A stretch of DNA of 64,000 bases, from NCBI RefSeq assembly GCF_013402815.2, contig NZ_CP058601.1, positions 2,604,001-2,668,000 on the forward strand, read 5' to 3'. The DNA comes from Natrinema halophilum. GTDB lineage: Archaea > Halobacteriota > Halobacteria > Halobacteriales > Natrialbaceae. Below are positions 34,258-39,700 of the stretch, piece after piece. Both the position numbers and the translations under genes were made by a program. The first letter of the stretch is position 1. Every line of letters starts with the position of its first letter. Under the pieces are notes generated by a model. The model did not search any database, was not told where the DNA came from, and was given only the letters and a program-made list of their open reading frames with translations.

Positions 34258-36123
34258 CTATTCGTCCGTGTCCCAGACGTCAGCAAGCGGACTCGAGCGC
34301 GATGAACGCCGCGATCGACTGGACCGAGACGTCCCGCGGTCTGCGTCTCCCCGTTCGGCGGCCTCAGTCCCGTCCGAACCCCCAGTCGGCTGGGTTCCCA
34401 TCTTCGTTCCTGTCCCCGGTTTCGAGGCGCCGTCCCCCAGCGCTTCGTTCGGGTCGAACGCCGGCAGGGTCGGCTGTTCCATCCGGTCGACCTGCGCTTC
34501 GAACCAGTCGGGCATGTCCGTCCGAGCGCGTTCGAAGCAATCGAGCAGGCTCGAGTCGGCGAGGTACGTCGCGCCGTAGTCGTCGGGCGCCCGGACGACC
34601 CGGCCGCAGGCCTGAATGACGGTCCGAAGCGCCGTCCGATAGTACCACGCCCACTGGCCCTCCTCGAGGCGGTGAGCCACTCGCGAGTCGCCGGTGTTGA
34701 GGAACGGCGCTTTGCAGAGAACCTGCCAACGACAGAGATCGCCCTTGAGATCGAGCGCCTCTTCCATCTTCACCGAGAGGAAGACGTCGGGATCGTCTGT
34801 GGCCGTCCAGGCCTCGAGGGCGGCGTCGCGACCGTCGCGGTCGTGGACACGAATTCGGTCGCCGACGCCAAAGTCGGCCAGGAGGTCGGCCAGGCGCTCC
34901 TGGATGTCGTAGGAGTGTGCGTGGACGAGGCCCTTCTCGTCGGAGTGACGTTGCATGAGCCGGACGATCGTTCGGGCGATCTTCGGCGTCGTCTCCGATC
35001 GCTGCCCGTAGGTCATCTTTCCCTGCGTGACGTCGTACAGCGGCCGGTTCTCGACGGGGAACGTGTGATCGACGTCGATCAGTGCGACGGTTTCCGGATC
35101 GAGCCCGACCTGCCGGCAGAACGCGTCCTTGTTGAGGATCGTCGCCGACAGCAGCGCGAACTTGTTGCCGCGGTCCCAGACGGTGTGCTGGAGGTATTTT
35201 TCGGGGTTCATCGGCTTGACCGTCAGCGGACCGCCCTGTGGGTCGTCATCATTCTCGTCATCCTCGGCGGCCGCTCGACGGCTCCCGGCGGGGTCAGACT
35301 GGTCGACCAGCCACGTCGTCGGACTCTGCGGATCGCGGAAGTCGGAGACGAACCACTCGAGTTCGCCGATGAGTTCCTGCAGCCGGTCGCGTTCGCGCAC
35401 CTCGGCTGGGGACAGCGAATCCTGGGCGAGTAGTTCGTCTTTCCGGCGCGTACAGGTTCCTGCGAGGTTCTCGGCGTAGCGGACCGCCCGCTCGACGGTC
35501 TCGACCTCCGGAACGCGGAGGTCGTCCCAGAACGGGACGGTCCGCGGCCCCAGTTGAATGGTCGCGTACATCTCCGCCCACTCGGCGAGACCGTGGGCCT
35601 CGTCGACGACGACGACGTCACGGGTCCGGAATACTTCGCTGCCCGCGGTCTGCATGAAATAGGCGAGCGTCATCGCCGCGATCTCCCGGTTCGATGCGAT
35701 CGCTCGATCCGAAAAGTACGGACACCGGTGTTTCACGGAACAGTCGTACCCACGTTCGCGGACGCAAGGTGCCTGATTGACCGGCGTATTCCGCTCATTC
35801 GGCAGGATGCAGGAGTAGTTTGACTTGCCGCGGATGACGTTCAGATCGGCCAGCAGGTCGTCGGCCGCGACGTCGTCCAGCTGGGAGACCTGCGGGGTCG
35901 TGTAGTACGCACCCGTGGCGTCGCTCGGATCGCCCTCGTCGGCGCGACGGGCGCAGCCGGCCACTGCGCGGGCGAGCAAAGACTTCCCGCTACCCGTCGG
36001 GGCGCGCACGAGGACGACGTCGTTGCCGGCCGCGAAGGCGTCGCGAACGTCACGGAGGGCCTGTTGCTGCGCCCCGCGATAGCTCGGCGCGGGAAACGCA
36101 TCGAAGATCCGCTCGGGGTTCAC
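34258..36123 (-). CDS. XPD/DinG-type iron-sulfur superfamily 2 DNA helicase
   Basis: A 621-residue helicase starting at a GTG (MNPERIFDAFPAPSYRGAQQ). Walker A is APTGSGKS at 41-48. Four cysteines at 105, 120, 128 and 134 fit the 4Fe-4S cluster of the family, and the DEAH box lies at 174-177. The C-terminal motor has SATILNKDAF and the motif VI QACGRVVRAPDDYG. The tail is low-complexity, rich in Ser, Arg and Gly. XPD/DinG helicases unwind DNA 5' to 3' in repair or R-loop removal. Archaea often have several; this may not be the XPD orthologue proper. The start is set by the absence of homologous sequence upstream. Confidence 0.88.
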   Translation of the reverse strand: MNPERIFDAFPAPSYRGAQQQALRDVRDAFAAGNDVVLVRAPTGSGKSLLARAVAGCARRADEGDPSDATGAYYTTPQVSQLDDVAADDLLADLNVIRGKSNYSCILPNERNTPVNQAPCVRERGYDCSVKHRCPYFSDRAIASNREIAAMTLAYFMQTAGSEVFRTRDVVVVDEAHGLAEWAEMYATIQLGPRTVPFWDDLRVPEVETVERAVRYAENLAGTCTRRKDELLAQDSLSPAEVRERDRLQELIGELEWFVSDFRDPQSPTTWLVDQSDPAGSRRAAAEDDENDDDPQGGPLTVKPMNPEKYLQHTVWDRGNKFALLSATILNKDAFCRQVGLDPETVALIDVDHTFPVENRPLYDVTQGKMTYGQRSETTPKIARTIVRLMQRHSDEKGLVHAHSYDIQERLADLLADFGVGDRIRVHDRDGRDAALEAWTATDDPDVFLSVKMEEALDLKGDLCRWQVLCKAPFLNTGDSRVAHRLEEGQWAWYYRTALRTVIQACGRVVRAPDDYGATYLADSSLLDCFERARTDMPDWFEAQVDRMEQPTLPAFDPNEALGDGASKPGTGTKMGTQPTGGSDGTEAAERGDADRGTSRSSRSRRSSRSSPLADVWDTDE

Positions 36124-36340
36124 CGTTCGAGTTACCGCACGGCCGCGTCCTAAATGCTGCGAACCGTCGCGCCGACTGAAGCGACGCTGCGTCGGGCGAT
36201 TCTCGATAGTGACCACCCTCGAGCGATATCGAAACCGGCGTCTACCTGACGGTATCGACCGCCTACGGGACTCGGGTTCGAACAACCGGACGGGTAGCCG
36301 ACCGATTACAAATACGAAATCCGTCCTCGGCTTGCAGTAC

Positions 36341-36428
36341 GGAAGGGTCGCTCAGCGGAAGAGCACCGCGGTGCCATTGGTTCCGCGGCGGCACTATGCC
36401 TCGTGGCGTTCGAATCCCACCCCTTCCG
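36341..36428 (+). tRNA. tRNA-like sequence with abnormal anticodon region, possible pseudogene
   Basis: The ends pair perfectly as an acceptor stem (GGAAGGG at 36341-36347, CCCTTCC at 36421-36427, discriminator G). The D arm is good (GCTC, loop AGCGGAA, GAGC), and the T loop TTCGAAT is present, although its stem needs a bulged C. The middle is too long by 15 bases: CCGCG and CGCGG can form an anticodon stem, but the loop between has 13 bases and the following variable region could fold as GGC-ACTAT-GCC. No normal anticodon can be read. It matches none of the haloarchaeal tRNAs I know. It may be a decayed tRNA, one with a small intron, or an integration scar. Confidence 0.45.
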
Positions 36429-36602
36429 CTCGCGGCGTTGGGTGTGCCGTGACTTCGGTGACGGACTGCGCCCGTGTTCACGCTCCCACGGTGTGTCCGT
36501 CGGCCGAACTATCTGTCATGGGCGCGGCGGTCGGTGGCAACGCCGACCGCTGCAAAGATACCTCGACACCTCTGCTCGGTTCCGACGTACGGGACGGCAG
36601 AC

Positions 36603-36742: not shown

Positions 36743-39700
36743 CGAGATACCCCACGAGGGTCCGTCTGAAACGCCTGCGCTCCTCCTCGATATACCGAGC
36801 CAGTCGATCGCTCTCTCCCCACAAGGGTTCGTCTGAAACGGCCAGAATAGACGAATCGTCTGCCTCACACGGGATAAGCTTCAACCCCACAAGGGTTCGT
36901 CTGAAACTACCCTGAAGGCACGACCGTTGACATGGATTTCCGGGGGCTTCAACCCCACAAGGGTTCGTCTGAAACTCGAACAAGGTCCTCCGGACAGTGC
37001 TCGAGACCTGGCGCTTCAACCCCACAAGGGTTCGTCTGAAACCGCAAGATGGACCCGGACGATGTGGGTGGTTCTGCATGCTTCAACCCCACAAGGGTTC
37101 GTCTGAAACAGGAGGGACTCGACGCCCGCTTGCACCGACGCCTGGAGCTTCAACCCCACAAGGGTTCGTCTGAAACCATCTGCAATAACTGCTTGGCGGA
37201 TGAATTCGAAGAGGCTTCAACCCCACAAGGGTTCGTCTGAAACGTTCGAACGCAAGCAACTCGACAATCTCGAGGACGCTTCAACCCCACAAGGGTTCGT
37301 CTGAAACCTTCCTCTTCGCGCGCAACGGCGGTGCTCCGTGGGATGCTTCAACCCCACAAGGGTTCGTCTGAAACCGTAATATTCGTTTGCAGGTATTTTT
37401 CCATGGAGCTTCAACCCCACAAGGGTTCGTCTGAAACGAGCACGGCAGCGCCGGCGACTGGGTTCGACCGCGAGCTTCAACCCCACAAGGGTTCGTCTGA
37501 AACTCGATAATAACAATGACCACAGAAAACAAAGCGTTAGCTTCAACCCCACAAGGGTTCGTCTGAAACCGAGGTTGAGGTGGCCGCCCTCTGGTACCCC
37601 AAGGTGCTTCAACCCCACAAGGGTTCGTCTGAAACCGCCGTACTTCGTGCTCGAGCGATCTGTTCGCTCTTCCGCTTCAACCCCACAAGGGTTCGTCTGA
37701 AACCCGAACGGGCTGGTCAGCACGCCGCCAACTCGCGACGCTTCAACCCCACAAGGGTTCGTCTGAAACACTCATCGTACCACCTCCGGTAATTCACGTA
37801 CCATTGCTTCAACCCCACAAGGGTTCGTCTGAAACCGCTGGTCCGAAATGACCGGCTACGCTGGCGGGGCTTCAACCCCACAAGGGTTCGTCTGAAACCG
37901 CTGGTCCGAAATGACCGGCTACGCTGGCGGGGCTTCAACCCCACAAGGGTTCGTCTGAAACAACATCGCCGACATGAGGATTCCCCGCGGCCCGCTGCTT
38001 CAACCCCACAAGGGTTCGTCTGAAACCGTCGCCACGCTTTGCAGCGTTTACGAGTTCGGAGCTTCAACCCCACAAGGGTTCGTCTGAAACGCCACATGAC
38101 CTATGGCGGGATCATCCGCAACCGGCCGCTTCAACCCCACAAGGGTTCGTCTGAAACTGCTGCTACAACAGTCATTGTGTGGATTCTTTCGGAGCTTCAA
38201 CCCCACAAGGGTTCGTCTGAAACGGTTGCTATTGAGACGGATACCTTCCAGGGCCAGATGCTTCAACCCCACAAGGGTTCGTCTGAAACCGTCTAAATCA
38301 TGACTACAACACACTGGTACGTAGGGCTTCAACCCCACAAGGGTTCGTCTGAAACATTCATAAAACCATGGTCTATTCACGAAACAATCCATGGAGCTTC
38401 AACCCCACAAGGGTTCGTCTGAAACACGAAGTCTTTGGTGGACGCTGCAGGTGTGTCGTCGGCTTCAACCCCACAAGGGTTCGTCTGAAACCTGGACCCC
38501 GAACGAGACGGTAACTGTAGTCGAGTTTGCTTCAACCCCACAAGGGTTCGTCTGAAACTTTCACTCACTTTCATTACTACGTGTTCTTTACGAAAGCTTC
38601 AACCCCACAAGGGTTCGTCTGAAACCTGGATTCGTTCAGTCAGAGAGTCAATCTTAGACCGCTTCAACCCCACAAGGGTTCGTCTGAAACGATAGTGTTT
38701 TGAATCGGGCTCGAGCAGATGGGGCTTCAACCCCACAAGGGTTCGTCTGAAACAGTCTGGACGATACTTCTAATCTCGTCTTCCGTGAAGCTTCAACCCC
38801 ACAAGGGTTCGTCTGAAACGGGTTCATATCCGGCTATGCCGCGTCGTAATGTAAGCTTCAACCCCACAAGGGTTCGTCTGAAACCACTCCGCCACGAGCA
38901 TGCCTTTCTGCCAGAGTTTGCTTCAACCCCACAAGGGTTCGTCTGAAACGGTTGTGAACAGCCCGATAGCGGCACCAGAGGCGATCGCTTCAACCCCACA
39001 AGGGTTCGTCTGAAACCCGGATGTTTGGCTAGCGTCAACACCGGAAATCTAGGCTTCAACCCCACAAGGGTTCGTCTGAAACAACAACTAAACTATGGGT
39101 CATCAACTATATTTCAGGGGGCTTCAACCCCACAAGGGTTCGTCTGAAACAATGGCGATATCGCCATCTCCGCGACGGTAGCGGACGCTTCAACCCCACA
39201 AGGGTTCGTCTGAAACGATGGCAACCAGTGGGGAACGGTCAAACATCAATCGCTTCAACCCCACAAGGGTTCGTCTGAAACGTCGACACGTTCCGGGATA
39301 CGGTTGATCTGACGGTCGCTTCAACCCCACAAGGGTTCGTCTGAAACGATCTGATACACTATGGATCTGAAAGTTATCAGGACGCTTCAACCCCACAAGG
39401 GTTCGTCTGAAACTCCCCTCTTGGACTGGGGTTCTGGTGGCTCGCGCGCAAGCTTCAACCCCACAAGGGTTCGTCTGAAACCCCCGACAGACGTGATTGC
39501 GGATAGCAAAGGCCCGCCGCTTCAACCCCACAAGGGTTCGTCTGAAACATCAGTCATCTTGATGGGTATCCGGCGTGTGTTTGCTTCAACCCCACAAGGG
39601 TTCGTCTGAAACGCCCGAACAGCGCCGGGCGATCGTGACCTATGTCGACGCTTCAACCCCACAAGGGTTCGTCTGAAACCATAGAGGTTCGATCCCGGTG

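Follow-up and report, generated by a model that had tools for sequence, protein, structure and literature searches.

The window, a stretch of 64,000 nucleotides of Natrinema halophilum DNA, holds on its plus strand a predicted RNA gene with the architecture of a tRNA, which is flanked upstream by promoter-like motifs and a divergent helicase gene, and beyond its other end by a CRISPR array (Table 1). The seven acceptor pairs, the D arm and the TTCGAAT T loop named in the original prediction are all present at 36341–36428, and the acceptor, D and T arms retain the residues of the tertiary core. The same prediction had noted a T stem requiring a bulge and a middle about 15 nt too long, and both features are confirmed: the T stem pairs only if one C bulges, and the element measures 88 nt, about 15 nt above a type I tRNA. 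A normal anticodon arm (5-bp stem, 7-nt loop, U33) is absent from this copy, in agreement with the claim that the arm is unusable. For the neighbouring helicase, the start at 36120 is a guess; the open frame extends to 36285.

Table 1. Features of the tRNA-like element and its upstream region (positions in the window)
Feature	Position	Strand	Remarks
Divergent neighbour, XPD/DinG-type helicase (Helicase_C_2, DEAD_2)	34258..36120	-	Pfam; not claimed as part of the system
GGTAG motif upstream of the TATA-like box	36293..36297	+	in -60..-36 of 44/70 type-1 upstream regions
TATA-like promoter box CGATTACAAATACG	36303..36316	+	consensus at -38..-25 of 70 type-1 upstream regions
Predicted tRNA-like RNA gene, 88 nt	36341..36428	+	mature ends predicted from acceptor stem; CCA not encoded
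Acceptor stem 5' strand GGAAGGG	36341..36347	+	pairs with 36421-36427; invariant in 23/23 aligned sequences
D arm GCTC-AGCGGAA-GAGC	36350..36364	+	equivalents of A14, G15, G18, G19 and A21 present
Hairpin replacing anticodon arm, CCGCGG-U-GCC-AUU-GGU-U-CCGCGG	36366..36388	+	without 7-nt anticodon loop; covaries among relatives
Variable-arm hairpin GGCA-CUA-UGCC	36390..36400	+	folding, covariation
C48 equivalent, just before T arm	36402	+	
T arm GTGG(C)G-TTCGAAT-CCCAC	36403..36420	+	bulged C at 36407; T loop TTCGAAT
Acceptor stem 3' strand CCCTTCC	36421..36427	+	7-bp acceptor GGAAGGG/CCCTTCC
Discriminator G	36428	+	

The statement that the element matches no standard tRNA also holds. ARAGORN called no tRNA anywhere in the window, and the Rfam tRNA model (RF00005) gave no match in 36241–36528 even at E ≤ 10; the four Rfam matches obtained from this segment at that threshold all lie far under their gathering scores. 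When the whole window was searched with Rfam 15, the 72 matches at gathering score were all CRISPR repeats, and no family reached that score at 36341–36428. Across the genome, the tRNA model recovered 45 tRNAs at E ≤ 0.001, the element not among them, and one more sub-threshold match elsewhere at E ≤ 10. A covariance-model search had been proposed as a check on the element; the missing tRNA score counts against a tRNA but leaves an RNA gene unrefuted. The folding energy of the element is −41.8 kcal/mol as compared with a shuffled mean of −33.6 (z −2.21; 5 of 200 shuffles equally good), which is modest evidence and unconvincing by itself. Chance is excluded by conservation in 28 congeners together with the covariation described below. 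tRNA-Asn is absent from the tRNAs listed by the Rfam search of the genome, and two anticodon-loop patterns give no plausible one; perhaps this reflects a limit of the search or masked sequence. The completeness of the N. halophilum tRNA set was dropped as an argument because the search did not list all isoacceptors.

Homologues, for which the original prediction had called, were recovered by a DNA similarity search of 100 genomes with a 126-nt query, and matches were obtained in 63 of them, including N. halophilum itself. Each of the 28 congeners carries exactly one match, at E 2e-29 or better. The remaining genomes of the same family matched in 27 of 32 cases, some weakly or as degenerate copies and two only at E 2.6e-4 and 8.2e-4, and in other families the matches were all weak. 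The full pattern is present at 61 of the 64 loci, two others (L062 and L064) being partial similarities and one (L059) degenerate. The degenerate copy, in genome G032, provides an example of loss; it retains part of the T arm and, upstream, a box-like stretch. Pairwise identity among the 29 loci of the genus averages 0.97 over the first 25 nt, 0.91 over the middle and 0.94 over the last 32 nt; upstream, it is 0.81 in the promoter segment (−50 to −21) and 0.63 between −20 and −1. Downstream, the identity is 0.47 and then 0.26 in two 50-nt segments, and three other flanking segments range from 0.39 to 0.65.

The wider distribution was determined with a strict sequence pattern, because the covariance model R1 also matches ordinary tRNAs. 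R1 is poor at separating members from real tRNAs, and its matches in 316 of 391 genomes were not used as a member count; among 19 R1 matches inspected, the GGAAGGG core is present in 18, and one match at 58 bits is tRNA-Ser. Because the strict pattern fixes the acceptor and D loop as well as part of the T arm, it is blind to variation in them. It matched 179 of the 391 haloarchaeal (class) genomes, the listed reversed controls giving 0, and was found in all 22 genomes of the genus and in 87 of 101 genomes of the family. Of the 14 pattern-negative family genomes, G358 has a variant D loop and is still a member (L066). The gene is dispensable, its pattern being missing from 212 of the 391 class genomes. 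A phylum-wide sample contained the pattern in 37 of 392 genomes, with 0 of 311 among the genomes of the phylum outside the order; the reversed controls listed were again 0. In a named genome collection, at least 120 matches were obtained; 79 of the 80 titles listed are haloarchaea and one is an unclassified euryarchaeal MAG, and the haloarchaea among the matches listed include Natrinema, Natrialba, Haloferax, Haloarcula, Halorussus, Halobellus and others. Two members per genome occur in G082, G130, G191, G224, G278 and G294, each of which combines a short member (80–90 nt) with a long one (99–106 nt), and also in G286 and G312.

The shared structure was examined in 161 distinct elements of 78 to 105 nt. 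The pattern by which they were collected sets the acceptor, D loop and 3′ T-arm strand in advance but leaves the 5′ strand of the T stem open, so the T-stem bulge is a free finding. In all 161 elements the T stem sets 6 nt against 5 and forms five pairs only with one bulged base, which is the U of GCGuGG or GTGuGG in 91 elements and the C of GTGGcG in 70. By comparison, five symmetric T-stem pairs are present in 40 of 41 N. halophilum tRNAs and four in the other one; such controls comprised 41 or 42, depending on the test, of the 44 tRNAs called by ARAGORN in this genome. Immediately ahead of the T stem stands C in 159 elements and A in 2.

The middle of the element, by contrast with the fixed elbow and acceptor half, is free in sequence and length. 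All 154 distinct middles (28–55 nt) have a folding energy below the average for 60 shuffles of the same sequence, with a mean z of −2.85 and z below −1 in 93%, and the stem opens within the first four nucleotides in 150 of them. Some of the long members, L139 and L178 among them, fold no variable-arm hairpin. A 5-bp stem closing a 7-nt loop is possible, with three registers allowed, in 11 of 160 elements (5 with U33) and impossible in 149, L118 having been skipped as its D stem did not fit the script; all 41 N. halophilum tRNAs pass a slightly laxer test. ARAGORN gave contradictory calls on the relatives (Val, Glu, Arg, Gly, Lys, Cys, undetermined or nothing). These comparisons indicate that the middle is a structured hairpin and not a decoding arm.

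Covariation was analyzed in 23 chosen sequences, three of the 26 first aligned (L057, L061 and L063) being omitted for their misaligned middles. Standard pairs occupy 97.3% of the cells, as compared with at most 56.9% in slid versions of the alignment, and double-change cells number 18 against a shuffled mean of 4.2, with 0 of 500 shuffles reaching 18; the omission of the three sequences flatters these values for the anticodon-arm helix. The paired changes affect the hairpin replacing the anticodon arm, the variable arm and a single pair of the T stem. Covariation lends no support to the acceptor, which never varies among the sequences found. RNAalifold, unaided, also arrived at these five helices, though the T stem and variable arm contain fewer pairs in its model. 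Conservation and covarying stems lend support to the suggestion of an unusual RNA, and they show that the element is real, not a product of chance or decay.

The upstream region contains the promoter-like features of Table 1. The GGTAG motif lies about 45 nt before the type-1 gene, and CTACC occurs 2–10 nt ahead of a GGTAG in 11 of 70 upstream regions; GGTAG and CTACC may form a regulator site. The tRNA genes of N. halophilum show, by eye, AT-rich boxes at a similar distance. Among the type-2 upstream regions (n = 90, pooled), no common promoter sequence was found, and individual AT-rich boxes are visible. The type-1 gene is probably transcribed on its own, as judged from its upstream sequence.

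The neighbouring genes differ between families. A crude gene picker placed an XPD-type helicase resembling the window's upstream of the element, on the opposite strand, at 18 loci. At 42 other loci, a few of which may represent one genome twice, sdhA (succinate dehydrogenase flavoprotein; identified by its sequence) is found upstream on the element's own strand, no more than about 4 kb away. DUF7561 and DUF7531 proteins (Pfam) are found downstream in relatives, and Halorussus-type loci have other neighbours again; no neighbour gene points to a partner. In Halobium salinum, which has two members, sdhA is upstream of the long copy only. When the surroundings of sdhA were searched under relaxed criteria in 26 genomes (4 with and 22 without the strict pattern), by a strict-structure script or R1, which strongly diverged copies would escape, the element was found only in G073, a known carrier. 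Two further matches from this search are ordinary tRNA-like. The CRISPR neighbourhood, offered in the original prediction as a clue, proved uninformative: a CRISPR repeat lies within about 1.5 kb at 1 of 230 loci, the window's own, in a scan that covered only the common I-B type repeat, included some loci with short flanks and kept duplicates between collections. The CRISPR array beside the window's copy is a coincidence. Degenerate CRISPR repeats are located at 36750–36773 and 36817–36840, at the low-coordinate end of the array, and the Rfam repeat matches start at 36878.

The 3′ end of the element recurs downstream in 28 of 182 distinct loci, giving 37 units of 93–166 nt. The 19-nt tail of the unit's own element is matched exactly in 26 of them, and the T-loop stretch is present as an inverted copy in 31. 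The units are small and structured, and each terminates with the 3′ end of the preceding gene, from T loop to acceptor, copied exactly or nearly so; they often vary in concert with that gene and occur up to two in tandem. Units lie within about 340 nt of the start of the element at L056, L072, L077, L164, L218, L223, L231 and other loci. The 17-nt 3′ end of N. halophilum tRNA genes likewise recurs within a short flank in 6 of 42 cases (L239, L250, L256, L258, L269 and L276). The units possibly represent a tiny tRNA-targeting element or a repeated processing structure. Because similar units follow ordinary tRNA genes, whatever spreads or maintains them treats the element like a tRNA gene.

Several other readings were weighed against these data. 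A decayed tRNA gene, or the attachment-site remnant of a mobile element near the CRISPR locus (the original prediction had suggested a decayed attachment site), seems very improbable: the element is conserved in 28 of 28 congeners with compensatory changes in its stems, its promoter box is conserved, the final 13 nt of its T-arm/acceptor strand occur only once in the window, and the strict pattern matches none of the viral contigs searched. Such a remnant would fit the general observation that tRNA 3′ ends are common attachment sites, the recurrence of 3′ ends downstream of the element and of tRNA genes alike, and the existence of a decayed copy (L059). It would also have a precedent in halovirus HF2, for which the available part of PMC8707807 describes a poorly folding tRNA-like gene as the attP. 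Carriage of the element on mobile elements was rejected in view of the viral contigs, which lack the strict pattern, and of plasmids and phages, which gave only short, weak matches. Just as doubtful is a translating tRNA with unusual geometry or with an intron, the latter having been suggested as a tiny one. The intact tRNA core, the various anticodons that ARAGORN gives some relatives and a possible gap in the tRNA set, with no Asn among the tRNAs listed, are what such a tRNA would explain. Its relatives, however, share no anticodon arm or loop, the ARAGORN calls contradict one another, a normal arm could form in only 11 of 160 elements as compared with 41 of 41 N. halophilum tRNAs, the T-stem bulge is universal, and the discriminator is not constant.

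Two further possibilities are unlikely, though less so. The element might be a t-element acting in cis, in which a tRNA-like structure serves as the processing signal for release of the RNA downstream, as before 5S rRNA in Haloferax volcanii. In haloarchaea, according to the available part of PMC4326828, a t-element precedes 5S rRNA and is cut by tRNase Z and RNase P. The present element resembles it in being tRNA-like, haloarchaeal, outside the decoding set and a plausible substrate of both enzymes; unlike that cis signal, it carries a promoter-like box, is located away from rRNA and differs in sequence. Furthermore, the downstream sequence is unconserved in the genus, the GGAAGGG core is absent on either strand from six 5S loci of three genomes (no 5S match was obtained in a fourth genome, from the Haloferax group), and a different tRNA-like end lies ahead of the plus-strand 5S copy of N. 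halophilum. The element is distinct from the 5S-linked t-element: it is not directly upstream of 5S rRNA, other genes adjoin it and its sequence differs. An aminoacyl donor outside translation, for example a seryl acceptor with G73 and a variable arm as in tRNA-Ser, has a comparably small chance. The discriminator is G in 118 of the 161 elements, type-1 members have a variable-arm hairpin, and the 3′ third is weakly like the 3′ ends of bacterial-phage tRNA-Ser (E 0.2–0.8); on the other hand, the discriminator is A in 42 elements and C in 1, the long members mentioned above fold no variable-arm hairpin, and no biosynthetic neighbour was noticed. The least probable reading, and a most improbable one, is an archaeal counterpart of bacterial Y RNA, a tRNA-like RNA bound by a Ro/TROVE protein. 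Like the tRNA-like module of YrlA, the element would mimic the tRNA elbow in a stand-alone RNA with a free extra hairpin, and TROVE proteins occur in some RNA-carrying genomes (e.g., G043, G076 and G079). The YrlA module needs Ro/TROVE, which is encoded in 14 of 145 class genomes, none of them in the genus; N. halophilum has none though the RNA gene is present, and the acceptor stem here, unlike that of YrlA, is open-ended as in tRNA. Y RNA identity was rejected on these grounds.

The element is probably a stand-alone haloarchaeal gene whose product is a small structured non-coding RNA with a tRNA fold but no decoding ability; this RNA is likely to be matured like a tRNA and to bind a tRNA-binding protein through its elbow and acceptor. 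We infer transcription, partner and function of this RNA from comparative sequence data. Beyond this, we lean towards a previously undescribed, haloarchaea-wide family of stand-alone, non-decoding tRNA-mimic RNAs, in which elbow and acceptor are fixed, a free hairpin stands for the anticodon arm and the T-stem bulge is universal, and which would serve as a dedicated trans-acting regulator, or as a decoy or scaffold for a tRNA-binding enzyme. Action in trans is the most likely mode because the promoter-like box is conserved in the window's type, the flanks are poorly conserved and the neighbourhoods differ by family.

The RNA would be transcribed from the TATA-like box, trimmed by RNase P and tRNase Z as for a tRNA, and excluded from translation through its missing anticodon loop; the T-stem bulge perhaps weakens binding of aEF1A and helps to keep the RNA off translation. 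The elbow and acceptor half of a tRNA faces RNase P, tRNase Z, the CCA enzyme, the enzymes modifying the T and D loops, aEF1A and some synthetases. Since this half is fixed in the family and the decoding half is free, the mimic is expected to act through elbow and acceptor, which could be presented to a processing or modifying enzyme or to a synthetase. Its variable discriminator (G, A or C) argues against a substrate of one fixed synthetase. The role of the RNA may be that of a decoy, a scaffold or a non-translational substrate.

The proposed tRNA mimic can be further compared with type II tRNAs and with tRNA-like RNAs of animals. Type-1 members share with tRNA-Ser and tRNA-Leu a long variable arm, the tRNA core and a length of about 88 nt, whereas the element has no anticodon loop, has a T-stem bulge and is unmatched by the Rfam tRNA model. 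The mascRNA-type RNAs, which RNase P and tRNase Z release as by-products of a long RNA, also have a non-decoding tRNA fold; unlike these by-products, the element looks like a separate archaeal gene. To our knowledge, stand-alone RNAs that retain the entire tRNA elbow together with the acceptor stem but have given up decoding are few. Holzle et al. 2012 (Biochimie 94:940) reportedly treat tRNA-like elements and may include a Haloferax member of the present family. With this possible exception, the element is undescribed in the literature searched, including the available parts of PMC4946936, PMC4326828, PMC8707807, PMC7714728, PMC12482152 and PMC6490895.

The element is present in about half of the sampled haloarchaeal genomes, including species of Haloferax and Haloarcula, genera with genetic tools, and is either overlooked by ARAGORN or assigned contradictory anticodons. 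What use a cell has for a tRNA unable to read codons is a directly testable question. Separately, a t-element candidate is located at L281, in the roughly 60 nt that precede the plus-strand 5S rRNA of N. halophilum, where ACCGATACTGGTATTACGAC resembles, by eye, primer itele1 as given in the available part of PMC4326828.
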